A stretch of 64,000 bases of DNA from Chrysoperla carnea. Its lineage: Eukaryota > Arthropoda > Insecta > Neuroptera > Chrysopidae. Within the stretch, counting starts at the first letter, position 1, and each line of letters opens with the position of its first letter. The position numbers were made by a program, and so were the translations under genes. The notes under the pieces were generated by a model. The model did no database searches, was not told where the DNA came from, and saw only the letters and a list, made by a program, of their open reading frames with translations. This document shows, piece by piece, positions 421-64,000 of the stretch. The DNA lies in NCBI RefSeq assembly GCF_905475395.1, contig NC_058339.1, forward strand, positions 16,624,001 through 16,688,000, written 5' to 3'.

Positions 421-2421
421 TAAACTTTTTAATTTATTTGAGAAAAAATTATTTTTATGTTTATTTTCCATTTTCCAAATTTTCCCAACACTGAGTCATT
501 GAAATCATGATAAACTACCTACAACCAAATATTTGTCTTCTTTACGGCATTTTTAAGTTCAAGGTGAGTATATGATTGTATTGTCTGAACGAGCATGGTT
601 ATAGCAAGTAATTTTGTGTATGTCATGAACTATTTACATGTATTTAAATATAGATAGACAGTAGATAGGTATAGTTAGGTAAGTATAACTAACTATAAGT
701 ACTTAATATCATTACAATTATATAGAAGAGAATGATTGACATTATAAATTATTTGATTTCCGGAAATTGTTTTATATTTTGATATACAAAACAACAGCCA
801 ACTCTAATGAACCGGTAGGTACTAATCATTCATTCATTCACAGTATATATAGTTATACACGTTGTATTAGAAAGTATTTCTAGTAGAGAATCAATGTTAC
901 ATGTTATTATTAAGCCGGCAAAAGAAGAGTATCAATCGATTTTAATTGGATCATTTTTACTGGACACGTTGTACACATAAAATATTACACAGATGTAATA
1001 TATCGCCAAAATTATGGTTGTTAATTATATGGTATTTATAATAATTACCTGCGATTAAATAATTTCTATTTGAGTAGTTTTATCGAGGCCAACTTTTAAA
1101 AGATTAAATGTTTTCGAACCAAAGAGTATATATAATTCAATTGATTCGAATTTATATTTTTGCTAAATATAAGTCATATTATTCTCTATTAGAAATACTT
1201 TTGTACACTAGCTGTATAGGTACTGTAGCTAAATAACAATAGCAATATAACTATGTAGTAGCTCTTCTTAGTATATGAACTATTATTATAAACTATAATT
1301 AGAATTATAATTAGAATATTTTATTACATAACATAAGTGACGTTATTTAAGGTTTTTTTTTCACTTATTTTTTAACAGGGATCTTCAACTATATTACAGA
1401 GATTCTTTTATGTACCTAATTAAGTAAAACCAATTGCAATGTTTGAATCTTAAGTCACGTGATGAGAGAATTGCTCTCGCATTCATGTACATGCGTCATG
1501 CAATTGTAAATCATAACCTCTACATAATTATATATAAATATAATTTTTAGTGCACTAATTAATTAAAAATAGTTTTATTGCATGATTATTGAATGATTTT
1601 TGTGAGTAAGAATAATATAGCAAAGAAATCTTCTAGATAATTAAATTCCTTTCAACTTATTTCGGCATATTTCTATCACAAGTTCTTTTAATTTACTAAG
1701 TATGACTCTTATTAAACTAACGAAAGTACAAGAACAGGGCCGAAAATTAACGAGGTTAATATTTTGTTGCTTACACATTTACTCTCATGATAAAAGAAAT
1801 TCTCACAATTTCTGAAGGACTTGAAAAAAAAAAAAATTTTTTTAATTTTTGATAAGTTAAAAAATTCATATAATGCCGAGCTAATAAAAGATATTATTAA
1901 CAAGATAGGATCGCTTTTTTTTTGGAGAAATTTTTAGACAGTTAACTGATGGTTAATTGATTAAAGCTGTCATCGTAGAAATGTCTTTTAATTCTCTGAC
2001 CTCTTTATATTGCTCCTAGATTATCCTAGAAAGTATCAACATACAAATATCTAAAATTCTAAACATCAAACTAAGGGTTGAATATAATTTTATTTTTATA
2101 TATTTATAGGGTATTAAACAGAACTAGGTCAGACATTCTGTACCTTTATATAATGCGTCATTCGACAAAGAGAAAGGGGGATACTTAAACTGTATCGAGT
2201 ATATGCTCATACGGTACATACACTACCGACATGTTATTTGTATGTAACTAACTAAAGTAAAATAGTGTTAATAAAATTTTCATGTCAAGGCCTTATTCAT
2301 AAAAATTGTTTACATGAATATTTTAAAAAATTTCGATTACATTGTATGGGTTGACAATAAAATATATATTTGCATATTTTCCCCGATAATATAGACCTAC
2401 GCACTAAGTTTTGTGTCCTTG
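421..2421. other. AT-rich intergenic stretch, no gene seen
   Basis: No exon-like ORF with splice sites was found. A weak inverted pair (AGTATTTCTAGTAGAGAAT around 873-891 against its near complement around 1180-1200) may be a decayed fold-back element of about 350 bp. The rest is low-complexity AT sequence. Confidence 0.4.
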
Positions 2422-4081
2422 TATTCGCACCGTGCGTGAGTTTTATTGGAGGCGTTTCCATGGTAACGATACTCTACTTTAATTATAGAATTGTATGGAT
2501 GCATATATAATTGTATGGATTGCATTTATGACTTACATTGAAAATTTAATATTATTGTCTAACAAATTTAAATAAATAATTATGATAATTTACATTTGAA
2601 AAATAATATTTGATGCAATTTGATTTCTTATTTTCACAATTTAATGCATTAAGTTTAAATAATTAGTGTTTTTCAATAATTTTAATTTGACATTTTCTAT
2701 AACATTAACATGTAATGAACTGCAAATTAGTCATAACAGCCTCCTTTATCGCCAAAATTTCACTAAAATCACTAAAATCGATGGCATCGATTTTACTTTC
2801 CCTACCATGACTACGCACACAAGGAATAGCTCTTGCTGGCTTGAGAAAATTACGCAAGATAGTTTGATATGTAGGTTAAAATCGAGGAAGTGTCTTTTCA
2901 TACCGAAATATCATCAATTATTAAAGCTTTGCGGATCTCTATAACTTCATCAAATTGAGATAATTTTATAGTTCCTTTTTGTATCATCGACTCGGGCGCC
3001 AAACAAAACTTTGTCAATAATCGATTTTGGCTTTTTTCAGATTTTCGCGACTATAATCCTAAAGGACTGGTTTTTGATGATACCTATTCAGGATGTTTTA
3101 AAGTAGTCTAAATTTGCTGCAATATGAGACTAGAAATGTCTCTGTAGACTCAATAGTTTCCGAGATAAAGCCTTTCAATTCGCAATTTTTTGCATTATTC
3201 TGTCATTCTGAATGAATTTGGACTCTAATTTTTCGTACACCCTCGTAAATTTGAAAAAAATATCCAAAGAATCAGGTCAAAATTCATTCAGACCGACAGA
3301 ATATCCCAAAAAATTAAAAATTTGAAAGATTAACTTTGAAAGGATTTATCTCCATATCTCGGAAACTATTCTGTCCACAGAAACAATTCTAGTATCATCT
3401 TGTAGCAAATTTAGTTTAATTTAAAAACATCTTGAAAAAAAATCTTCAAACACTGGCCCATAAGGGTTAGAATCGGCAAGGGTTATGTCGATTTTTTACA
3501 AAGCTGCGTTCGGTGCTCGGGGTTACAAGCTTGGAATATTTTCATTGGAACAATATCAGAAACAAGTCTCCTTAAAAATCAGAACTTCTGGATTTGACGC
3601 AATTTACTCAGTACTTTCAGATGACAAGCTTACTGGATTATAACGCATGTTCTTTATAAACATAGTACAAAATAATTTAGTAATTTTTCTTATTCGTTGT
3701 GTGCGTAGTCATGGTAGGGACAATAAAATCGATGCCAGCGCTTCCAGTGAAAAATTTTGGAGTTAAAGGGGGCTGTTATGACTAATTTGCAATTCTTTAC
3801 ATGTTAATGTAATAGAAATGTCAAATGAAAATTATTGAAAAACACGAATTAATTAAACTTAATGCATTAAAAATTGTGAAAATAAGAAATCAAATTGAAC
3901 AAATATTATTTTTCAAATGTAAATTATCATATTTATTTATTTAAATTTGTGAGACAATAATATTAAATTTTAAATGTAAGTCTTAATGCAATCCATACAA
4001 TTATACATGCATCCATACAATTCTATAATTAAAGTAGTGTATCGTTACCATGAAAACGAAACTCACGCACGGAGCGAATAA
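2422..4081. mobile_element. Non-autonomous DNA element with long terminal inverted repeats
   Basis: The left arm (2422-2820) begins TATTCGCACCGTGCGTGAGT. The right arm (3699-4081) is its diverged reverse complement, ending in CTCACGCACGGAGCGAATA. The arms are about 380-400 bp, with about 880 bp between them that I cannot translate into any protein. The arms share CCATGGTAACGATAC-like, ATGGATGCAT and GACTACGCACAC blocks in mirror order. A half copy of the same family lies at about 47.73-48.21 kb. The 92-aa ORF inside the left arm is not a gene. A target-site duplication was not clear. Confidence 0.75.
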
Positions 4082-5274
4082 ATAGCATCTATTCATTTCA
4101 TTCATGTATTTTAGTATAAATTCCAAAATGACTAAAAACAAATATTTTGCGTTGGCGTTGGCATGATGAATTAGTCGTTAAAAATAACACCACATTTATT
4201 AATATATTAGAAAATATTTTAGATATTTAATACTATTTCTGAGTGTGTGTGTGTCTGATTTTGAGTGGTGCAGAGTGTGTGAATTTGACAAGGATGAATT
4301 TTTCAAATAACTTTCTTAGTCAATCATTTTTGTTTTAAGTTAGGTAAGTATTTTTTTAAAAGAGTTTAGATTTTAGTCGTTTTATTTATTGGATATCATT
4401 AAAGATGTATTTTTTTTAATAAAATCTCCAATTAGGTTACTGTTTTCTTTCAGCCCGCAAAATTTTTGCAAATATCTATTTTTATAGGTTTTGTGAATAA
4501 GCTTTAAGGGCCCTAAAAATTTAACTGGCTTAAGTTTCATTAAATTCTGAATGCAAAGTCTATTACCGATAGTACTACCTTAACGAACACTTGGGTTTAT
4601 AAACCAGTATTTTGGTCTACAAATTTGATTTTTAAAGTTTAAATCCTTAAGAATATGTCCTTAAACGAATTTTTCAAAATTCGAATTATTTTCGGAGAGA
4701 CAGCAGTTTTTCTGATAACGAAGTTCGAATTTATCGCTTTGAATTGCGAGCTTCTGCTGTTTCAATAGAAAGTTTTTTTTTACAATTTTATATTATATTT
4801 TTAAAATGTCAATTTTATGAAAAAATAACAAAAATTTTTAAGCTTCTTGACCAAAAAACCCACTTATGACAAATCCACCAAGCCGTTTGGAAAAATAGAA
4901 GTAGATAATTAAATTTATAAACAAACATAAATACAGACATACCTTACAACAGTCGAGTAAAAAATTAAACACTGTATTGTTTAGAGCACACTTATTCAGT
5001 AGATGCTCGATTTTGATAAGCTTGCTTTACGACATTTCTAAATATGGCATAACTGTACTCATACTTGCGAATGAATTTTCTGTGATAACTGATTGAACAG
5101 TTGTGTTTAGACCATACCTGAAACAAACAATTAACTTTTTAATATCATTATTCATAGTTTTTTGTATACGATAACTAAAATTCATTTAATTGTATACGCT
5201 AAACAATATATCATTAATTTTTTTTTAAATCACTTTTTTTCAAAACTCAAATAGCCATCAATGTTTACACATTT
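4082..5274. other. Intergenic, no feature recognised
   Basis: AT-rich sequence with a short GT-rich tract near 4245. An ACTACCTTAACG motif near 4572 resembles the ends of the TTAA-flanked elements at 13 and 26 kb, but I found no partner end. Confidence 0.3.
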
Positions 5275-7352
5275 TTATACCATGTATAAGAAATATACCA
5301 AGGTATACTAAGTTTAGTACCAAGTTTGTAACGCTTAAAAATATTGATACTAGGAACAAAATTTTGGTTTAGGTGTTCAAAAATCACCTAATTAGTCCAT
5401 TTCCGCTTATCTGTCTGTCCTTTGTCTGTCGTCTGTCATCGCGATAACTCAAAAACAACAAGAGATATCAAGCTGAAATTTTTTAAGTACTTAGAACATA
5501 AAAGTGGGATCGAGTTCTTAAACGAGCAATATAGGTCAATTGGATCTTGTAAACCGTTAGAGATAGAATCAAAGTTTAAATGTAAAAAATGTATCTTATA
5601 AAAAATAAACAACTTTTTTTTAAAAAATTTTTTCGTAAACATCGCTGTTTACCCGTGAGGGCGCAAATTATGCGCCAATTGTATAGTTTGTATTATACGG
5701 GAATATCAATTATATATATGTGACGTGTATGTAAGTGTAATGTGACAGAATAATCAACACTGTCTATACATGGTATTTGAACAACTAACTCAGTCAATGT
5801 TTTCACTTGTTTACCTCTATATTTATATAAAAATTGTTTTTAATAATCAATTTCTCATAAACCGTTCAGAGAATCATCTTGAAATTTAAACAGAATATGT
5901 AATAAATTCTCAGTATTGATTTAAAAAATTTTTGGTAATACTTTCAGTATGATCTCGAAATTTTTTAACTATGAAAAACTTTAAAACATGCATTAAAAAT
6001 GATGATGATATTTATGTATCTGGAAGTCATTTGAATTTTGTAATTATCATGTTAAATATATTTATTATTAAAATATACTTTACCACATTTTAAATAAATT
6101 ATAATTAATTATTGTTTAAAATATATTATATTGTTTAGCTACTGTGTAATTAAATATTTTTAAAGGAGACAATGAATAATGTTATTGTTTGTAGCTTATT
6201 TAGAAATTAATTTATTATTATTATATTATTAATTATAATGATAATATAAATAATAATATAATTCATTTTAAAATGTGCGTCGATAATGTAAATTTTTAAA
6301 GAATCAATTGGTTATTATCATAAATAAATAATCATTAAATAAATAATTATTTAACTTTCAGTAAATAGTTTTGAATTGCAAAAGGGTATGTTGGACTGAT
6401 ACAATAAATTATTCAGCTTCAAGGTTTTTCAAGTTCAATTCTAAGCTTTTACTTTTCACTTTTTCATGGAATCATTCTAATAAGTTTTGTAGCCCTAGGA
6501 TCAACACAAACTTATTGTATTGTCATCAATCCTTGATAAGTGTGCACATTTTTATTCAATCTAAATTTTCGAGGTGGATGAAAATCACGTTCAAAGATTC
6601 CGTATCATAGCAAGCTAATAAAGCCAAGTAAAATAAGTGAAAACAAACAATTGATTGAGTTAATTGTTGAAATACCATATTTTACTGTCAATTTAAACAT
6701 ACGTATACACATACATAATTGATATTCTCATACAATACATGCTATACAATTTGCGCCGATGAGTCCTACAGGCCCAAGACCATGACCTATGTTGCTCATT
6801 TGCTCACGAACTCAACATCACTTTTTACGTCCTTTGCACGCTATAAAAATTTCAGCTTGATATCTTTTTTCGTTTTTGAGTTATCGTGATGACAGACGGA
6901 CAGACGACAGACAGACAACTGGAAATGGGCTAACTAGGTGATTTTTTGAACATTTATACCAAAATTTTGTTGACGGCATCAATATTCTTAAGCGTTACAA
7001 ACTTGGGACTAAAGTTAATATACCTTGATATACAGAATGTTCAATTTACATCTAGGCATATAAATATCACGAGTATGACAGAGTACATGCGTTAAGCAAT
7101 GTATCTAAGTAAGAGATATTATAGGTGACTTGTATCGTGGTTTATCTGTTGTAGTTCATCTATTCAACTAGAAAACTCCCACTCTCCAAGCGTCTTACAA
7201 CTATCTCAACGCATATCGAAGCTTCAACAAATGTATATAATACCTCTCACTTAGATACATTGCTTAACGCATGTATTCTTTCATATAGTTGATATTTATA
7301 TGCCTAGATGAAAATCAAACATTCTGTATATTACATATATACATGGTATAAA
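5275..7352. mobile_element. Full-length fold-back element of dispersed family A
   Basis: The left arm (5275-5812, plus orientation) starts TTTTATACCATGTATA. The right arm (about 6638-7352) is its reverse complement and ends TATACATGGTATAAAA. Diagnostic blocks in both arms are GTATACTAAGTTTAGT, AAAATCACCTAATTAG-like, TCTGTCTGTC-like and GTTTACCCGTGAGGGCGCAA-like sequence. The right arm is split by a younger MITE at 7033-7326. The central ~0.8 kb is AT-rich, with a segment (about 6480-6625) that recurs near 10.9-11.0 kb. No coding capacity is visible, so the element would depend on enzymes supplied in trans. Confidence 0.75.
7033..7326. mobile_element. TA-flanked MITE, nested in family A
   Basis: A 294-bp element with mirrored ends: CAGAATGTT...AACATTCTG. 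Further mirrored blocks lie inside (CATCTAGGCATATAAATATC; ATGCGTTAAGCAATGTATCTAAGT). It is flanked on both sides by the dinucleotide TA, the target of Tc1/mariner-type transposases. It interrupts the right arm of the surrounding fold-back element, so it inserted later. Confidence 0.8.
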
Positions 7353-33484: not shown

Positions 33485-33634
33485 TTCGTTTTGTTAATAA
33501 GTTATTTTATGAATCAAGTCTTACTGATGTTTGTAGTAGGATTCTACTCTATCTAGGTAGTGTGAACTCTTACTAAGAATAAACTTTTCCTGTAACATAT
33601 ATATCGATGAACATCTCTATATAATAATAGCATA

Positions 33635-34270
33635 TAGTCTAAGATCCCGCTGCAAAAATCTGCATGTATCTGTTTTTTTGATAAAACTTAATTTTTATGA
33701 ATGTTAAGTAATAGCAGAACAGATTACGGCAGGGTTGCCTATCAAAATTTGGCCGCAAATATTTTTAATTAAATTTTTTAAAATTGATTTCTGTTGATAA
33801 ATTGCATGTACATGTTTTTTACGTAAATCCAATGTTATTTAAAAGCAAATGATGGGAGAAATACAAATAAAAAGGGTTGCCAGCTCTCAGTCGGCCGCAA
33901 CCTGTGGGTTGCCAGGTGTGAACAGGTATATTACTGTTGATTATTTGCACTTACGTGTTTTTCACTTCAATTATATATGAAATTAAAGTTTATTTATTTC
34001 TCTATACGATAACACATGGTTGCCTGAAAAATAATGGCCGCAAGTAGGGGTTGCCATCATTTGAATTTATGTCTCCTATTACTGTTGATTATTTGCACTT
34101 ACGTGTTTTTCACTTCAATTATATATGAAATTAAAGTTTATTTATTTCTCTATACGATAACACATGGTTGCCTGAAAAATAATGGCCGCAAGTAGGGGTT
34201 GCCATCATTTGAATTTATGTCTCCTACGCTGGAGGACTGCAAGCTAGAGAATGCGCGCGCCACTTTGGGT
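33635..34270 (+). repeat. Left TIR with paired GGTTGCC / GGCCGCAA motifs
   Basis: Contains GGTTGCC at 33,733, 33,875, 33,907, 34,018 and 34,049, and GGCCGCAA at 33,751, 33,893 and 34,036. The 34,018-34,049 set is repeated 148 bp further on. The motifs recur in a fixed GGTTGCC-spacer-GGCCGCAA arrangement, as expected of transposase binding sites (inference). The inner ~35 bp diverge from the right TIR. Confidence 0.85.
33931..34226 (+). repeat. 148-bp tandem duplication inside the left TIR
   Basis: TTACTGTTGATTATTTGCAC through GAATTTATGTCTCC is present twice in a row (33,931-34,078 and 34,079-34,226), apparently without differences. The right TIR carries the same duplication (41,184-41,331 and 41,332-41,479) in inverted orientation. 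Both ends therefore acquired it together or it was copied between them. Confidence 0.9.
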
Positions 34271-34412
34271 AGTAAACAAGGATGCCATATGGCAGATGGG
34301 ATTTATGTAGACGTTTTCTTTAATATACTTCTTTCGTTTTTCGAGTGAAGAGTTCTATTCTGTCAATTTTTGTGTTGATATATTTTTGCCAAATTAATAA
34401 TTGTTTTTCAAA

Positions 34413-37400
34413 ATGAAGACGTGTTTTTTGTGCGGCAGTACTGACAATGTCATTGAGTTTAGTGATGATTCATTACAAAAGTGTAAACTAATGCTATTAT
34501 TCCGCCAAAAAAAACAATTTAAATACAGTGATTTAACCCTAAAAAGTGAAACAGACAAAATAAATGGTTATCACTCACAGTGTTATAAAAAGTTTACGGT
34601 TTTAAAACAAAAATATAAGGAAGAATTTTCTAATTTTTGTCAAACGCAAACTGTAAGTAAAACTTTATGTTTATCATACTTTTTTTTCATTTACATTTAT
34701 ATCATGTAATTTACAATGGGATTATTTATAGGAACATTCAGCCACAACTTTTGCTGCTGAGCAGTCGAGTAATGTTAATAATCCAAATGAAATGTTGATC
34801 CAAATGGACGTTGATGAAATGGTGGTATACAATGATCTTAGGACTGGAATTTTGAAGGAGGTATGTGATGATTTACAATAAAACGATATAGGTATTTAGG
34901 TGCTCCTTTTTCAGATAGTGGTAATATTTCTTTTAGTTCTATAATATTGCTGCAATATTTTAAGTTAAACCTGAAATGTCGCATAAAATTTTGATTCAAA
35001 AAATATGTACAGATAGCAGCTGTGCTTCCCATTGCATTTCTATTCATCAATTCATAGGTACTACCATAGATAATAATTATTTATCACTCAACTCACGAGG
35101 CAGCGCTTCAATCAATTGACCGCCTTTTTTAAAATACTCAATGCCAAATTCTCAACACAATTGATATTTTTACTTTTTTATGTTTTACTGTTTTAGAACA
35201 TGTTTGAGTATCACATTTTTATTTGAAATGCTATCAATTAGCGTTTTTCCCAAATCATGTGCTTAAAACAGTAAAACCAAAACATAATTAAACATTTGAA
35301 AGAAAAAAACGCTTTTAAAATATAAAATAAATTTATTAAACAACTAATCTTTAACTTTTTTACATTTGCATAAAATTTTATATTTCATAAAATTTTATAA
35401 ATCGTGATTGCTTTCGAGAATCCTCTATAAGACCTACTTACAATAATAAATTAAATATATGTATTACATAAAGATTTTAACTTACTACTTAAGTGGAGGC
35501 TAGGAAAAGCATTTTCCTTTGTATTAGTTCGCAATTTTCCTCTACAAGGTTAGAATTTAATTTCTCCGGCGAAATGTAAATCGCAGGCACGATAGTTTCA
35601 AATATTCAATGTACGTTCAACCAATCTCTATCGTCCATTTCTTAAATCGCTGAAAAATTAAGTCTTTCAAGAAGATTTCTTCTCAAGCTAATAATTTTTG
35701 TACTTACCTCATAATCTCATAATCCTTAGGAATCGTATGGTAATCTAATCTCGTTTTGTATTTTTCCACAACCTTTCACTCAACATGCAAAAACTATCTT
35801 TTAATTTTATATATTTATAATTAATATTTTATAATAATTGACACTATTTGAAAATAACTATTTTATTAGTCTGTCAAATATGACAAGGTAACTATGGTGA
35901 TGAAACTTTCCCACAAAACAATATTGTAATCAAAGAATTCAGTAGAATTAGCCAAAAAAGTGAAACATCTCTATAGAGCTAGATAATCTTTAAAAAAATC
36001 ATTAAAACCATTTAATTTTTATTAACGTTGAAGTAAATGAAATAAGTTGATCAACTAATTTACACTTTACCAGCAATAAATATAATTGTATAAATATTAA
36101 ATTAAAATAATAAACAATTTTATTTCAGGAGTTGCCCTCAACTTCCACTTCGATGAAATCAATGGAGTCAACGAATACTTTAGCAAGCTCTCAATATTTA
36201 ACGCCGACTAAAAAAGTGCTGTGTATGTTTTGTGAAACAGTGGAGAAAAAAGTTGGCGGACGACGAGTTTATGTTTCATTTCCAAAATCACAACAGACAA
36301 TAGATGAAATAAAAAAAATTGCAATGATAAATAATGACACACGAATTTTAGATATACTGGAACATTATAAAGAACAAGTAGCATACCATGGAATTTGTTT
36401 AACCTCATTTCAAGTAAAAAGAATAAGACAAATTATTGAACAGCCTGAACCTACTGTGTGGCATGATAGTAGGAATTTGTATAAAAAAGCATTTCAATCA
36501 CTTTCGGTTTTAATCACTACTGAAATAGTGGAAAAAAGGAAGGTCATGTATCTTGCTGACCTTTTTTTTACATACAAAGCACTTTTAATGGAGTATAAAC
36601 CTGTTCATATGTCCATTGAAGAGTTAAAAAACTATCGAATAGAAGCCTTAGAGCATAAAATTATGAATGTTTTTAGCGACTCCATCACTATCGAAACCTC
36701 TTCTGGGCCACAACAGAAAAAAATTGTTTACATGCGTGACATTAATATTTCAGAATTGGCTACCAAAGCTGCACATCTCCAAAATAGAGAAGTCAATAAA
36801 CTAGAGCATGCCGCTTATGAATTACGTAATTGCATCAAGAGCATTACAGTGAATAAACTTCCTGAAAAATTGACAGCCGATGACGTGATAAAGGGAGAAT
36901 GTGAGATCCCTGAAAAACTTTTTGACTTTATGTGTAATCTTATTCAGGGGCCAGATATAAGGCGGAAAAGTTGTGAAGACGATTATATCAAAATTAAATC
37001 GTTATGTAGTGACATAATTTATATTGCATCAAAAGGAACAATTAAACCATCCAAAAACCTGACACTTGGTCTTGCTATGAAGTCATTAACCAGTTCTCGA
37101 AGAGTTGTTTCTATACTAAATAGATATGGCCATAGCATAGGCTACAACTTAGTAGAAGAAATTGAAACTGAAATGACATACACAGCACATGAAAACAACA
37201 AAATTATACCAAATGGAATAGACATTGTTGAAGAACGCAGTACACATGTTGCATTCGACAATTTTGATCGTTTTGTCGATACAAGTTCTGGTAAAGATAC
37301 CCTGCATGACACAGTAGGAATTATCTATCAATTTACTGCAGATGATGAGAATGAAAACTGTGCGGATACGGAAAACGATAATGATGAAAATCTGGACAGA

Positions 37401-40400
37401 TCAAGTACGTCAATTGTTGATGAAAATAGCAGCGAATCTTCATCACGTCCTCGTAAAAGAAGAAGATTTCAAGGAGTTGTCAATGAGATTCGACCATATT
37501 ACAAACAACCTGCACAAGGTATGACTTTGATTTCCGCCAGTGCCATTGAACAGTTTATTAGTGAATGTAAATATGCTACAAACATTGCAATTGATAAAGA
37601 CTTAATGTGGATTATTTCATTATCACGTTTCAATTCAACTCCAATGTGGTTGACTTATAATTGCAACCTGTCTTCAGACAATAGTAAAATTCAGACTATT
37701 GAATATTTGTCTCCAATTAATGCGTCTCCAACGTCGGACTCTGTTGTTCAGAAAACTCTGGAGATAACAAGTGAGATTGCCAATAACTGTAAACAACAAA
37801 ATATTATTGTCACGTATGATTTAGCAATAGCTAAAATCGCTTGGCAAATTCAAGAAAAATTAAGACCTAAATTTGATAATATTTTCGTAAATATGGGTGC
37901 ATTCCACACACAAATTGCATTCTTCAGAGCTCTGGGAAAATACATCGATTCTAGCGGATTGGTTGACATCTTAATTAAAGCAGAAGTACTTGGCGTAGGT
38001 TCAACAAACAATTTTATTGACAGCAAACACTTTAATCGTTGCAGACGACTTCATCCGTTGATTTCTGCCGCTTTGCAGATACTGCATTTCAAACAGTATT
38101 TATTACAACTAGAAGGTAGTGCTGAAGTGTCTCGTGGAAATTCATCACAAAGTGAAAGTGAACCTGACGCGCTAGATGAAAACTTATTACCAATAGAATT
38201 TGATCCAAATACATTTGATGATGATTTATTAGAGTTTATAAACAATTCGTCTAACCATATTTCACCTGATGACAACGAACCAATGATTTTACCGAATTCC
38301 TTACAAAAAATAGTTAATGGCTATAAACAATTTTGCTTAATAACTTTATCAGGTGGTCACGGGAAAACAGCTCAATATTTTTTTCAATATACACAATTTG
38401 TCAACTTGTTCTTGAGATTTTCGAGAAGTATCCGCTCTAGTGATTATGAACTATATTTGGATTCTATTTTCGACATGTGTGATTTGTTTTTCGCATTAAA
38501 TCAACCAAATTACGCAAGATATTCGACTTTATATTTAAACAATTTAATGAAATTGAAAATCGAGCAATCACCTCTTCTTTCTGACTTTCGACGTGGAGCT
38601 TTTGGTATCAGACGTACAACCGCAAAGTTTGCAAGATCACCTGTAGATTTGTCATTAGAACAGACTATCAACGCTGACGCTGGTAATACATTGACTGGTA
38701 TTACTCACTTTACGAATTCCATAAGTGCTAGACAAAAATGGGCTCTTAGTCACAGTATGAGGACTAAGATTTTAACAGCAGTCAAAAAAGAAACAGGATT
38801 ATTGCACGAAGATGATACGTCCCAATGTTTACAACAACATCAAATTAAAAAAGATAAACTCGATTTAAACCAAATAATATCAGTATTTAATAACTCAATA
38901 AATCCCTTTAATAAAAATATAGATGAAAATTCGCTGTTCAACATTTCGACTGGCAAAGCAGCATCTCAACCTGTGGCTGACTTTCTTCTTAACATTATAT
39001 CAATTGGCAAGAAACAAAAAATGGAATTTATATCAGAATGTGTTGAAGAACCTGGGAGATTCGTGAAATCCATTCGTAGAAATAACATTTTAAATTTTGC
39101 ATCTGACTGCGTTAAAAAAACTCAAAAAAGTAGAGACGGAAGCAAACGCATTCTTCTGAAAATGGAACGAGATGTGTTTGGACGGCTATTAGCAATAGGA
39201 TTAAAAAAAAAAGTTGATCTTGAATATTGTTTAACCTTTCCTCTTGCACCTGCACCTCCAGCTCTTTTTCAATGTTCTGGTGAAATGTTCAAAACGACGA
39301 AGTCTAAATTAGCTGATCACTTGAAATCACAAATAAAGCTAACTAATCCTCCACCAATTGATATAGAAGTGATTGATGGTTTTTACTTTTTACATCTCAT
39401 TGGATTTTCCTTGCCTCAGATGTTTGGAAAATTAGCTGAGTCTATTTTAATAAAACTTTGCTCAACAAGTGCTCATGAAGTACATATTATTTTTGACAAA
39501 TATATAGTGCCTTCGATAAAAGATTGCGAACGGGAAAATCGATCAGCGATCAACATTCCATACACTATCAACGGCCCTCTTCAACCTCGACCCAATAATT
39601 TTCTCGAAAGCCTCAAAAACCGTTATTTCAAAGAGGCACTCATTAATTTTTTAGCTACTTACTGGGAAAATGATTGTAATGCAACGACATTACTCAATAA
39701 AAAAGTCTTCATAACCGTTGAAGAACAGTGTTTCTCTTATAAATCAGATGGAAACTGTGTAATAAAAACAGAAGAAATTGATTTTAATTGTCAACATGAA
39801 GAGGCTGACACGAGAATAATGTTTCACATAAGTAAAGTGCCTCCAAACTCAAAAATTTTAGTCAAAGCTAACGATACTGATGTGCTCATCATTTTGTTGG
39901 GGAATATTCACAAAGTACCTGATATAGAAATTTGGATGGCTGGAACAACTAAAAAAAATGCAACTAATCAGAGTTGCATAAATTGTACACAATTAGCATT
40001 GAAACTGGGTTCAGAATTATGTCGTGCTCTACCAGCATTCCATGCTTTTACTGGTTGTGATTTCACAGCTGCGTTTTATAACAAAGGCAAAGTCAGACCA
40101 TTTAAATTATTTGCAAAAAATAAAAATTTTCAAACAATTTTTCAAGCACTCACCAATGAAACCGACGTATTTGATGAAGAAAAAATTAGTATCGTGCAAG
40201 AATTTACTTCCCTCATATACGGTGTCAAGAAATGCTCGAGTGTAAATGACGCTAGATATCAATTATTTCAAACAAAATATTCGGCAACGAAAAGTACTGA
40301 AAAATTTTTAAAAAATGTCACGACCTTTGACTCAAAAATGATTCCACCTTGCTGGCGGTCATTAAAACAAAAAATGTTGAGGACTATTTTTGTCAACTCA

Positions 40401-40715
40401 ATGTGGACGAACGCAACGGATCCATGTTGTGTAAACTTGAATCCTGAAGACTGCGGCTGGAAGTTAATTGAAAATACTTTACAACCAACATGGTTCATTG
40501 GTGACCCCACCCCAATGACAGTTGAAGATATTTTATCAGAACCAAATCATAACTTCGAAGACTTCGAGAGTAATTCTTCTGACGAAAACTTCCTTTTAGA
40601 TAAAATAGATTCAATCTCAGAAGACGAAGAAGAAGATGGTTATGATAATAATAATGATGAAAAAGAAGAAAATGAAAAAGAAGACGAAGAAGAGGACGAA
40701 GAGCAAGAAAATTGA
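34413..40715 (+). CDS. Transposon protein: zinc fingers plus XPG/PIN-like nuclease region, 1,651 aa
   Basis: Exons 34,413-34,652, 34,732-34,860 and 36,129-40,715 join in phase 0 at GT/AG junctions (CT|GTAAGT, TATAG|GA, GAG|GTATGT, TTTCAG|GA). The ATG at 34,413 is the first in frame and opens a zinc-finger-like motif C4-x2-C7...H54-x2-C57. A second, similar one is C155-x2-C158...H210-x2-C213. A basic cluster RPRKRRR (563-569) is a likely nuclear signal. FDNFD (D500), VTYD (D687) and GAFH (713-716) are blocks I associate with a widespread uncharacterised animal transposon-protein family; D500/D687 could be RNase-H-like metal ligands (speculative). Near the C-terminus, EEADTR (1347-1352), NDTDVLIILLG (D1372, D1374) and FTGCDF (D1434) match the order of acidic motifs in XPG/FEN1 PIN-like nucleases. 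The last ~50 residues are almost all acidic. Presumably the transposase; the family is not named with certainty. Confidence 0.8.
34861..36128 (+). other. Second intron of the transposon gene
   Basis: 1,268 bp between GTATGT and TATTTCAG. Contains a small inverted pair (TATGTTTTACTGTTTTA near 35,178 against TAAAACAGTAAAACCAAAAC near 35,265). No additional exon is needed to keep the frame. The minus-strand ORF inside is incidental. Confidence 0.6.
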
Positions 40716-40779
40716 TATATATATATATAATTTTTCATAACAATTTTTGTGTTGTAAAAGTAATATTATATATTTTTTT

Positions 40780-40785
40780 AATAAA
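40780..40785 (+). terminator. Polyadenylation signal of the transposon gene
   Basis: AATAAA 65 bp past the TGA stop, still 348 bp before the right TIR; the natural end for the transposon transcript. Confidence 0.6.
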
Positions 40786-41133
40786 AGCACCTCATTCTAC
40801 AATATTTATCAAACTCGATTATTAGAAAAACCTTAATATAATACCTTCATTGACCAATAGTTATAAGTTCGTATTTAATTATATAATACTGTACTTTTAA
40901 AAATAATAATTTAGACAAGCTTATTGATATTTAAAACAATATTTAGTAAAGACTCATTCGTTTAAGAGACTAAAGTCTATGAGAATAAAGTGATTAATTA
41001 TTAAAATGAAACATGGGTTTATCTTAATACAGTTTTCTGTATGGATTTCATTTCCTCAAAAATCATTATTTCACAGATATAAAACTCGAATAAAAATAAA
41101 TTTTAACTCTGATTCATCATATTTCTCTTCACA

Positions 41134-41775
41134 ACCCAAAGTAACACGCGCATTCCGCCTCTCTTGTTTGCAGTCCTCCAGCGTAGGAGACATAAATTCA
41201 AATGATGGCAACCCCTACTTGCGGCCATTATTTTTCAGGCAACCATGTGTTATCGTATAGAGAAATAAATAAACTTTAATTTCATATATAATTGAAGTGA
41301 AAAACACGTAAGTGCAAATAATCAACAGTAATAGGAGACATAAATTCAAATGATGGCAACCCCTACTTGCGGCCATTATTTTTCAGGCAACCATGTGTTA
41401 TCGTATAGAGAAATAAATAAACTTTAATTTCATATATAATTGAAGTGAAAAACACGTAAGTGCAAATAATCAACAGTAATATACCTGTTCACACCTGGCA
41501 ACCCACAGGTTGCGGCCGACTGAGAGCTGGCAACCCTTTTTATTTGTATTTCTCCCATCATTTGCTTTTAAATAACATTGGATTTACGTAAAAAACATGT
41601 ACATGCAATTTATCAACAGAAATCAATTTTAAAAAATTTAATTAAAAATATTTGCGGCCAAATTTTGATAGGCAACCCTGCCGTAATCTGTTCTGCTATT
41701 ACTTAACATTCATAAAAATTAAGTTTTATCAAAAAAACAGATACATGCAGATTTTTGCAGCGGGATCTTAGACTA
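41134..41775 (-). repeat. Right TIR
   Basis: Reverse complement of the left TIR, including the 148-bp tandem duplication and all GGTTGCC/GGCCGCAA motifs at equal distances from the terminus. The ORF at 41,006-41,260 reads into it and is not a gene. Confidence 0.85.
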
Positions 41776-41781
41776 ATAGCA

Positions 41782-56494: not shown

Positions 56495-59400
56495 CTATAA
56501 ATTGTTTAATTTGGTATTATAAATAATATTCTTATAAACCTTAACAGATGATCGAGCTGTTCTGGGTCTGGATGGATCCGTGTAGTTGATATGAAACATT
56601 CCAAATCTTTTTCTAAAATCCAAAATGAAATATGCAAATAAAAATGATGTACGCGATAAATTTTATCAACTTATATAAATTTTTTACTTACGTGTAGCCT
56701 CGATGCCATTCAAAATTGTCTAATAAACTCCAAGCATAATAACCTAAAATATTGGCACCCTCCGAAATGGCATCAGATACACTTTGTAGGTAACCCTAAT
56801 TTAAATTCGTAATTTTAGTGCGTTAAAATAACGTCGTTATTTTAAACAAGATTACTTGCAGTGTAATTAAATTGTTTGATTTTTATGGTTCAACTTACAT
56901 TCAAATAGTGAATTCTCCCTTGATCATCTAAAGCTTCCTCGCAAAAACCATTTTCAGTAATATACACTGGTATATTATTTGTATAATTCTTTACGTACAT
57001 TAAAGCTTTATAGAAACCCCATGGAACATCGTACAACCAAAAAATATCACTTGCAGGCCAACTTGGATCAACTGTCTTCTTGACTGCCACATCATTATCC
57101 GTCGACGGAGTCAGAACATCAATTTCATCACTCGCATCATTTACATAATTTGTAGAATAATGGTTAATTCCTAAAAAGTCTGCAGTACCTCGAATTTCTT
57201 TAATTTCTTCTTCTGTAAATTCTGGTAAACGTGATTGTCTGAAAGACTGGAGTTTACTCATATTTGCTACACGGTCTTTTACTAATTTTGGAAAGTCACC
57301 GTCTTTCGCAAATATGGGATGAGCGTATATTCCAAACTGTAAAATAATTTCAACAATTAAATTGTTATATACCTTTTAACACTCGAAAAATAACATAGAA
57401 TTTCGAAAATTAAGTCGCATTCTGAATGTTAAAACAATTTAGATCTATCAATTTATGATGGATGATGTCACACAATTTACACCAAGATAGACAATCAATC
57501 ATAATTTTTATTAAGCAAGAGGGCTAATCATCATTAAGGTCATATTTCCCCCTCTTTAGATCCCTCATTTGAAATACTATTTTAGTATTTTCATGTTTTT
57601 GAACAAATGAAATATTTATGCGAAAGAGTTGGAAGGGGGGCCGAGGCATTGACACCAGCAAAATAAACTTTTTAAAGATTCAATTTTTAGATAAATTTTC
57701 GACCCTCTGGCTAAATTTAGGGCAGCTTTTAAATGCACAAGGCCTTAAAAATTGCTAAAATCAGATATTTTTCAAAATATAAATGGGGATAAGGGAGTTG
57801 GTACCCTAAGACCCTCAAAAGAGACTTCGTGAACAATAAGTCAACTTACATAAAGGTTTCCAACCTCCAAGTGTGGAAGTACGAAATTCTCTAAGGCGGG
57901 GAAATCCATAATATTTCGTCCCATAAAAAGGGGAGGAGATGTTACGAAGTCGACATCCCCCAAAAGGTACGAGTAAAACATGTCACGGAACGAGAAACGG
58001 ATTTATAACACACCCCCACTGCTCTCCGTACATACGTCTCTATCTTCGGAGGAAATATGATCAAAAAAAAATTTCTTTTGTTATGCAGCCACTTTATGTT
58101 AATACCGGGTTTGCTAAATTGTAAGACATTCACACTACACGTTTGAAAAGAATGTTCAAATATTTACCATAAACTCTAAATCGCGATTTGCTGCTTCAAT
58201 ATCTTTTGTTGTATTGGTCAAAGGATCTGACCAAGGTATGTCCAATACAAGTCCCACCTTTCCTAAAAATTTTAAAATATTGTCATCATTATTTTTGTTA
58301 CAAAAAAGTAAATAATCAAAAAAATAGAAATCCCGACTGCTTTAAATAAAATTCGAAAGGACAGAAACAAGTTCAGAAGTTTACATAGAGACTTTAACAA
58401 TCATAGCCCATTATTATTTAACAGTCGGGTCCCAAGTGCATGCATATGAGTCAAAATTTCGATAGATTCTCGTTTTAGCATTTAATAATCGAAGAAGCTA
58501 CTCCCTAAGAAGTTTTCCTTTCTTAGCCGGATCATAACTGCCCAAGACGCCATAGCTTTTGAACTCCATTTTTAGTAAAAAGGTATGTAAAAGTTAAAAA
58601 TTTCACCGTACCTCGTAACCGTTGTCGTTCTTATTTCGAATTTAATGGAAAAAACCTTCTATAAAAAAAAATATGTTATTATCTTAAAAAATTACCATTT
58701 TGTTTAGCAAATTCATTTTTATAGACATGGTATGCTTTTGCATGAGCTTTTAATAATGTGTGTGCACATAAATATGGAGCCACAGCATCTAAAGCAACAG
58801 ATCCTAGAGATTTTCCTTCACCCCAAATCATTTCTTTACAAAATTGTTTAGGTTCATTGAGTGTTGCCCAAAGCTTTACACGATCACCAAAATGTTCAAA
58901 AGCCACTCTTGCATAATCGGCAAAATATTCAACCATTCTTGGATTAGTCCAACCACCCAATAATTGTAAGGATTGTGGATGATCCCAATGATAAATTGTT
59001 ACCAAAGGAGTTATATTATTTGCAAGTAATTTATCAATCAATTCATTATAATATCGAATTCCATCTGGATTTACCTTGTTTGAAAATCTGAAAGCAAATT
59101 TTTGTATTAGTCATATAATTAAAAGAAATTGTTTTAACAGAAAAGCCCAAAACCCTAAATATAATGAAGATATTTAGGGTTTCAAAACAATTGTAAGAAA
59201 CTTACCCCTCAGGTAGGATCCGCGGCCAAGACAATGAAAATCGATATGAATCAACTCCAAGCTCTTTTAAAACTTTAATGTCTTCATCAATTTTATGGTA
59301 TGAATCACAAGCTACGTCACCATTTGAATGATCATCAATTTCATTTGTATAATGAGCTATATGATCCCAACAACCTTCAGATTTTCCACTTTCATTCCAT

Positions 59401-61740: not shown

Positions 61741-64000
61741 CTACAAATTGTTAGATTTAACGTCATGGATGAAATTCTTCAACCATTTAGCCGATGATCG
61801 TGCTGTTCTGGGTCTGGATGGATCCGTGAAATTTACATGATACAATCCAAACCTTTTTCTAAAAGCAACAAGAAATTAAAAATAAATAAAAAAAATTTCA
61901 ACTTTTTGTACGAATTTTACTTACGTGTATCCTCGATGCCATTCAAAATTATCCAATAAACTCCAAGCATAATAGGCTACAATATTAGCCCCGTCCGAAA
62001 TAGCATCAGATAAACTTTGTAAGTAGCCCTAAAATAATTTAATATTTGTAAACATCACTATATATTACACAACATACTCTAAAAATACTTCGAATCTAAG
62101 AAAAACTCCTAAAATATGCATTATTGCAAAAATGGAACCGTATGGAGATATTTTACGCAGTACAATATCGAAGAATCATTAGAAGAACCTATAAATTGCA
62201 CCAGAATTAATTACAGGAAACTGTACTGTTAAGATCAACCTAAAAAACTACTGCATTCATTACGATAAGAACAATGGTCTAATGCTTCAAATTGCGAATA
62301 TCTAAAGAATAATAAGCTTCGTTTAAAGCTGGAAAAGCAAAGGTTTAAAAGAGGATGATGAATTTATTAATATAGTACAGCTCAATAGCCCACAAGTTTC
62401 CGATTGAGCTTGTCGGCACGGAGCCTTTCGATATTCTTCTTAGCATGTTATATTTAATTTTTATAAAGTTTGGTTTACCTGATAATAGTGAACTCTCCCT
62501 TGATCATCAATAGCTTCCTCACAAAACCCATTTTCAGTAATATAAACGGGATGATTATTTGTGTAATTCTTAACATACATTAAAGCTTTATATAATCCCC
62601 ATGGAACATCGTATAACCAAAATATTTCACTTGCAGGCCAACTTGGATCAATTGTGCTTTTAACTGCTCTATCATTATTTATGGATGGAGTGAATAGATC
62701 AATTTCATCACTCGCATCACTTGTTAAACTTGTAGAATAATGATTGATCCCTAAAAAGTCAGCAGTACCACGAATTTCTTTTACGTCTTCTTCTGTAAAT
62801 TCTGGTAAACGTGATTTTTTGAAAGATTGGAGTTTACTTAAGTTTGCAACACGTTCTTTAACTAGTTTTGGAAAATCGCCGTCTTTCGTAAATATCGGAT
62901 GGGCATAAATTCCAAACTGTAAAATAATTTATAAATTTAATTTGTTACCTCTTTATGCAATTTACAACATAGATTGAACTTTTTACAGTTGGGCAAAGGG
63001 TTTTCGATGATAATTCTTTAAATTCAACCCCTTTTATCAAGTTGTTATTCTTCGACCCTTCCAGACTGTAGCATTAACACGAGATAGTTTAATAAAGTGT
63101 TGATATAATATTTACCTGAAACTCTAAATCCCGGTTTGTAGCCACAATATCTTTTGTTGTATTTGTCAATGGCTCAGTCCAAGGTAAATTTAATACTATT
63201 CCCAACTTTCCTAAAAATTTAAAGCACAAGCATTCAATTTCCAATTTCAGTGGTTATATCGTCTTAACATTTAGTTATGTTACATTAAAATTACCTTTTT
63301 GGTTCGCAAATTCATTTTTGTAGATATGGTACGCTTTTGCATGCGCTCTTATTAATGTGTGTGCACATAAATATGGAGCTACAGCATCTAAAGCGACAGA
63401 TCCAAGAGATGGTGCTTCGCCCCAAATCTTTTCTCGGCAAAATTGTTGGGGTTCATTAAACGTCGCCCATTGCTTTACACGGTCACCAAAATGTTCAAAT
63501 GCCACTCTTGCATAGTCAGCAAAATATTCAACCATTCTGGGATTAGTCCAGCCACCCAATAATTGTAAGGATTGTGGATGATCCCAATGATAAATTGTTA
63601 CCAAAGGAGTTATATCATTTGCAAGTAATTTATCAATCAATTCATTATAATATCGAATTCCATCTGGATTTACTTTGTTTGAAAATCTAAAAACAAATTG
63701 AAATAAAAATAACAGTATAACGAAAAAAAAACAGAATAAATAACAATATTGTATTTTCAACATTGTAAGTTAATTCGCCCAACGTCATTTATATTCGGAT
63801 AAAAAACTATAAAAAAAAACTTACCCTTCAGGCAGTATTCGTGGCCATGATATTGAAAATCGATATGAATCAACTCCAAGCTCCTTCAAAACTTTAATGT
63901 CTTCATCAAGTTTATGGTATGAATCACAAGCTACATCACCATTTGAATGATCATCAATTTCATTTGTATAATGAGCTATATGATCCCAACAACTTTCAGA
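61741..64000 (-). CDS. Glycoside hydrolase family 1 paralogue, 5' end outside the window
   Basis: Exons (minus): >64,000-63,825, 63,686-63,295, 63,210-63,116, 62,916-62,479, 62,028-61,925 and 61,858-61,741. Exons 3-7 have exactly the same lengths (392, 95, 438, 104, 118) and phases as in the neighbouring gene. Visible landmarks: [27 protein letters not shown] (acid/base E), GINHYST, YITENG (nucleophile), WSLLDNFEW, ending SAKWLKNFI...SNNL and TAG. In exon 3 I count about 13 differences in 130 residues (about 90% identity) from the complete gene. The signal-peptide exon and the start of exon 2 lie beyond the right edge. Introns are short except the one before exon 6 (450 bp, about 103 bp in the paralogue), which has gained sequence. 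Probably a secreted beta-glucosidase or myrosinase-like enzyme; substrate unknown. Confidence 0.92.
62029..62478 (-). other. Expanded intron in the partial GH1 gene
   Basis: 450 bp against 103 bp in the neighbour. The additional sequence (about 62,100-62,450; e.g. CGTATGGAGATATTTTACGC) has no mirrored ends that I could see and no ORF. Confidence 0.5.

Follow-up and report, generated by a model that had tools for sequence, protein, structure and literature searches.

A recently mobile, probably autonomous transposon of likely AcademX type in Chrysoperla carnea, with a putative DDE core and a predicted 5′-nuclease domain in one protein

What kind of transposon occupies positions 33635-41775 (8141 bp) of a 64,000-nucleotide stretch of Chrysoperla carnea DNA (the window, G000:C3:16624001-16688000), and which part of its protein would do the cutting? 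A sequence-only reading had placed the element at exactly these coordinates and described it as young and seemingly autonomous, with an XPG/FEN1-like nuclease at the C-terminus of its protein, and as possibly either a relative of Academ elements or a separate superfamily. The answer favoured here, at a probability of roughly 80%, is a recently mobile, probably autonomous AcademX-type transposon whose one protein combines two zinc-finger-like motifs, a DDE RNase-H-like core, and a nuclease of the FEN1/EXO1/XPG/XRN superfamily.

The first line of evidence comes from copies elsewhere in the genome (559 Mb on 337 contigs). A search with the terminal inverted repeat (TIR) yielded three further full-length copies of 8141 bp, two of them (C6:10688916-10697056 and C3:8840071-8848211) with 0 differences from the window copy and the third (C6:10893738-10901878) with a single differing base. 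All four copies lie between different flanks and are bordered by 3-bp target-site duplications (TSDs), ATA in the window and TTA, TTG, and TAA at the other sites. Nine elements that are shorter and more diverged (L034-L042; 0.9-6.7 kb), their ends reading TAGTCTAAGATCCCG or TAGTACGAGATCCCG, are likewise bordered by a 3-bp TSD, so that a 3-bp match is present at 13/13 elements and a 4-bp match at 0/13, at a chance 3-mer identity of 0.026; loci L043-L048, in which no clear pair of ends was seen within the stretch, had been excluded before this count. Near its ends the window copy also has an 8-bp TAATAGCA repeat, which was ruled out as the TSD, since the other 12 elements have 3 bp together with TAG...CTA ends. 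Empty sites were sought by joining the flanks of two copies, L032 and L033, and matching them to diverged genomic places that run through the junction. For L033, a paralogous site with a single TSD copy was found (71% identity over 129 bases, 46 of them left of the junction); the site for L032, also with one TSD copy, is weaker (78% over 82 bases, with only ~13 on the left side). The flanks of L033 (C3:8840071), whose diverged relative lies on C5, look coding-like by eye and perhaps belong to the gene of another transposon. Taken with the open gene described below, the three additional copies bear out the proposal of a young element, which on these sequences is probably autonomous and very recently mobile.

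The gene was correctly described as unbroken: three exons totalling 4956 nt, joined at splice sites deduced from the sequence (GT/AG borders), encode 1651 aa followed by a single terminal stop. The motifs EEADTR, NDTDVLIILLG, and FTGCDF are all found in the protein, as are, by eye, two C-x2-C...H-x2-C motifs corresponding to the C2HC-type fingers that had been proposed. Exon 1 has a counterpart with 56% identity in the relative L034, and a pattern resembling the second finger was seen by eye in L050, L051, L052, and L034; the frames of L053 and L054 start downstream of it. Apparently, L034 leaves no space for the 1268-bp intron 2, its match to exon 1 spanning 832-1071 and the next match beginning at 1277. 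A minus-strand frame of 80 aa (window 34838-35080) overlaps exon 2 and intron 2 in antisense and is perhaps a captured or nested fragment.

The product of exon 3, P0001, has at least 55 matches in the genome, a lower bound since 31 of 608 candidates were scored, in which the four identical copies are included and pieces of one gene are counted separately. Six related loci carry frames of 1361-1535 aa that are 36-58% identical to P0001, and in four cases the frame extends past the fetched stretch; many other related copies are interrupted by stops. Frames kept open over such length in diverged lineages lead us to infer selection on the coding sequence. Viral contigs scanned with A1 for relatives gave 33 pattern matches, none of which was confirmed.

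The C-terminal domain is the part of the protein for which structure prediction speaks most clearly. Its predicted fold matches the FEN1/XPG/EXO1/XRN 5′-nuclease superfamily, and seven acidic residues, D1083, D1123, E1225, D1227, D1249, D1251, and D1311 in P0001 numbering, are invariant in 7/7 aligned proteins; in L046, an additional fragment, the last of these positions is Y. By motif, the seven are presumed to be the equivalents of FEN1/EXO1 residues. Sequence searches gave little: with the threshold set at E 1, P0001 matched neither XPG_I (PF00867) nor any other Pfam family, the predicted fold notwithstanding, and the five PF00867 matches in the genome all lie outside the element. PDB sequence searches returned nothing better than E 0.25 (mL120, ribosomal S10, humpback-2, L15), one of them giving no match at all, and hhalign against a two-sequence EXO1/FEN1 profile aligned the FD..PS.K..ER..R stretch only (39 columns, probability 2%, E 0.022, run without a shuffled control). 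Structural comparison, which had been suggested as a check, did find FEN1/EXO1/XRN-type folds, and the model together with the acidic residues supports the proposed nuclease at the level of the 5′-nuclease superfamily (FEN1/EXO1/XPG/XRN-like).

Which branch of this superfamily is closest bears on the classification. Foldseek with the nuclease model ranked XRN1, XRN2, and Rat1 first, accounting for 8/8 matches at E <= 0.001, and the structural alignment covers 313 residues of XRN1 versus 249 of EXO1; families missing from the match lists were given no weight. It is conceivable, though doubtful, that the nuclease is XRN-like rather than XPG-like and acts in transposition itself, for example by 5′ strand removal or hairpin opening at the donor or TIR ends, with the stagger and the 3-bp TSD depending on it; an XRN-like nuclease in transposition would make the protein a two-nuclease transposase in a single chain. 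The same structural ranking could be taken to place the element in a separate superfamily outside AcademX, all the more as the AcademX assignment was made from anatomy rather than by comparison with a reference Academ protein. This reading seems improbable: of the two possibilities raised earlier, kinship with Academ is the better fit to a nuclease combined with a 3-bp TSD, and a separate superfamily found no support.

Absence of a DDE core from the protein found no support. Upstream of the nuclease, a conserved D, D, E set is embedded in a predicted RNase-H-like order of strands, the model being weak in this region. D377 and D380 are kept in 6/7 aligned proteins, the seventh missing the stretch, and D564 and E844 in 7/7; among the rows reaching each column of a wider alignment, read by eye and containing several near-copies, D377 is present in 11/12, D564 in 12/12, and E844 in 13/14. 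The sister element L034 (6.7 kb) has an open frame of 1535 aa (1148-5755) from which ~35 residues, D377 and D380 among them, are missing, and its own transposase may therefore be inactive. DUF6589 matches 2/7 members weakly, at best with E 0.0019 and 17.4 bits where the cut-off is 27; none of the papers searched named this family together with transposition, and it was not used.

Since no other fold in the protein is as well supported as the nuclease, whose seven acidic residues are kept in 7/7 proteins, and the DDE model is weak, it might be argued that the nuclease itself cuts and that the upstream region only binds DNA, which would amount to a new class of transposase. The retention of D377, D564, and E844 in both alignments weighs against this, as do the predicted positions of the triad, which are those of DDE enzymes (the first D within a strand, the second following one, and the E in a late helix), and the presence of ISCth4 and Hermes among the top structural rows. 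In DDE enzymes, a fixed stagger of the transpososome gives TSDs of constant length, and the constant 3 bp seen here suit such a transpososome. A nuclease-only cutter is hence quite unlikely, and the reading of an AcademX-type element with a DDE core is retained. Finally, the near-identity of four copies, of which two lie ~200 kb apart on C6, could suggest an assembly artefact or a segmental duplication that never moved; this has next to no probability given the paralogous empty site, the nine additional elements whose ends are related and whose TSDs are equally long, and flanks that differ at 4/4 copies, each with its own TSD, by which a segmental duplication is ruled out.

The features of the element are collected in the table.

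Features of the transposon in the window (residue numbers of the two C-terminal domains refer to P0001; numbers in brackets after residues are codon positions)
Feature	Position	Strand	Remarks
Left TSD, ATA	33632..33634	.	3-bp match across both sides
Left TIR, 616 bp	33635..34250	+	starts TAGTCTAAGATCCCG; 100% complementary to 41160-41775
Tandem copies in left TIR	33929..34224	+	two perfect 148-bp copies; family D1
Exon 1	34413..34652	+	aa 1-80; first C-x2-C...H-x2-C finger, aa 4-57, by eye
Exon 2	34732..34860	+	aa 81-123; GT/AG borders
Intron 2	34861..36128	+	1268 bp
Exon 3	36129..40715	+	aa 124-1651 + stop; 1528 aa = P0001
Second C-x2-C...H-x2-C finger	36222..36398	+	by eye
Putative DDE transposase core	37140..38768	+	candidate triad D377 (37257), D564 (37818), E844 (38658)
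FEN1/EXO1/XPG/XRN-like nuclease	39297..40445	+	predicted fold, conserved acidic residues: D1083 (39375), D1123 (39495), E1225 (39801), D1227 (39807), D1249 (39873), D1251 (39879), D1311 (40059)
Right TIR, 616 bp	41160..41775	-	100% complementary to left arm
Tandem copies in right TIR	41184..41479	-	two perfect 148-bp copies; family D2
Right TSD, ATA	41776..41778	.	3-bp match across both sides

Long identical TIRs had been noticed before, at ~640 bp with ~605 identical; the perfect part measures 616 nt, inward of which the aligned arms diverge, and the tandem duplications had gone unmentioned. The arms agree at every base, also within the tandem duplication, which suggests that they were recently homogenised or that one arose as a copy of the other. 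Of 45 TIR matches genome-wide, 8 are arms belonging to the four copies, and the other 37 are relatives at 66-83% identity, a lower bound; by this measure the 8.1-kb family is one among several in the genome. All nine relatives L034-L042 carry TAGTCTAAGATCCC at one end and TAGTACGAGATCCC at the other, the 8.1-kb element having TAGTCTAAG at both; the ends are thus unequal in the sister family. Two of these relatives, L037 and L038 (~1.1 kb), are near-perfect end-to-end palindromes, with inverted self-matches of 1148 and 1118 bases at 94-95%, and are read as fold-back non-autonomous derivatives. No Rfam family was found in the window at gathering score. Elsewhere in it, minus-strand open frames in tandem (56890-57375, 62461-62928, and 63275-63769) resemble, by eye, GH1 exons of the beta-glucosidase/myrosinase type.

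A working mechanism can be outlined. The N-terminal fingers and the adjoining region would bind the TIRs, and the DDE core would nick the ends, excise the element, and carry out strand transfer into the target. Joining to a target staggered by 3 bp, mostly A/T, would give rise to the 3-bp TSD. The 5′ nuclease would probably act during excision or repair, either at the donor or at the ends, and trim or open a 5′ flap, a hairpin, or a branched strand there. The near-identity of the four copies, the unbroken gene, and the knowledge of the ends make this family practical starting material for excision and integration assays in which the two active sites are mutated separately.

The nuclease of the element resembles EXO1, FEN1, XPG, GEN1, and XRN1 in its predicted fold and at the seven acidic positions; it differs from them in sequence (~10% identity) and in being fused to a transposase. 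For the putative DDE core, the structural neighbours to be named are ISCth4 and the hAT transposase Hermes, which, like the putative core, has a helical insertion between its second D and its E. Within the Academ superfamily of Repbase, which belongs to the DDE transposases, the nuclease of AcademX is of the XPG type; we know of no test of the role of the nuclease in Academ elements. Kojima 2023 (PMC10045372), among the papers searched the one found to describe AcademX, speaks simply of a nuclease, gives TSDs of 3 or 4 bp for AcademX and of 9 or 10 bp for AcademH, and relates this difference to the nuclease or helicase that they encode. AcademH, although a DDE group of the same superfamily if the element is an Academ, departs from it on both counts. 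Its 9 or 10 bp contrast with 3 bp at 13/13 elements, and no helicase domain was found by Pfam at E up to 1 in exon 3, which the scan covered without exons 1-2 (123 aa). The Pfam families touched by the seven members are DUF6589, Herpes_LAMP2, and MTR4-like_stalk, the last an accessory stalk matched by one member at E 0.16, and include no helicase core. AcademX, in contrast, agrees with the element in both nuclease and TSD, a likeness drawn from anatomy and description. On this anatomy, the element is filed as AcademX-type and seems to be an intact representative of a group that is known, if little studied, rather than a new kind of transposon.
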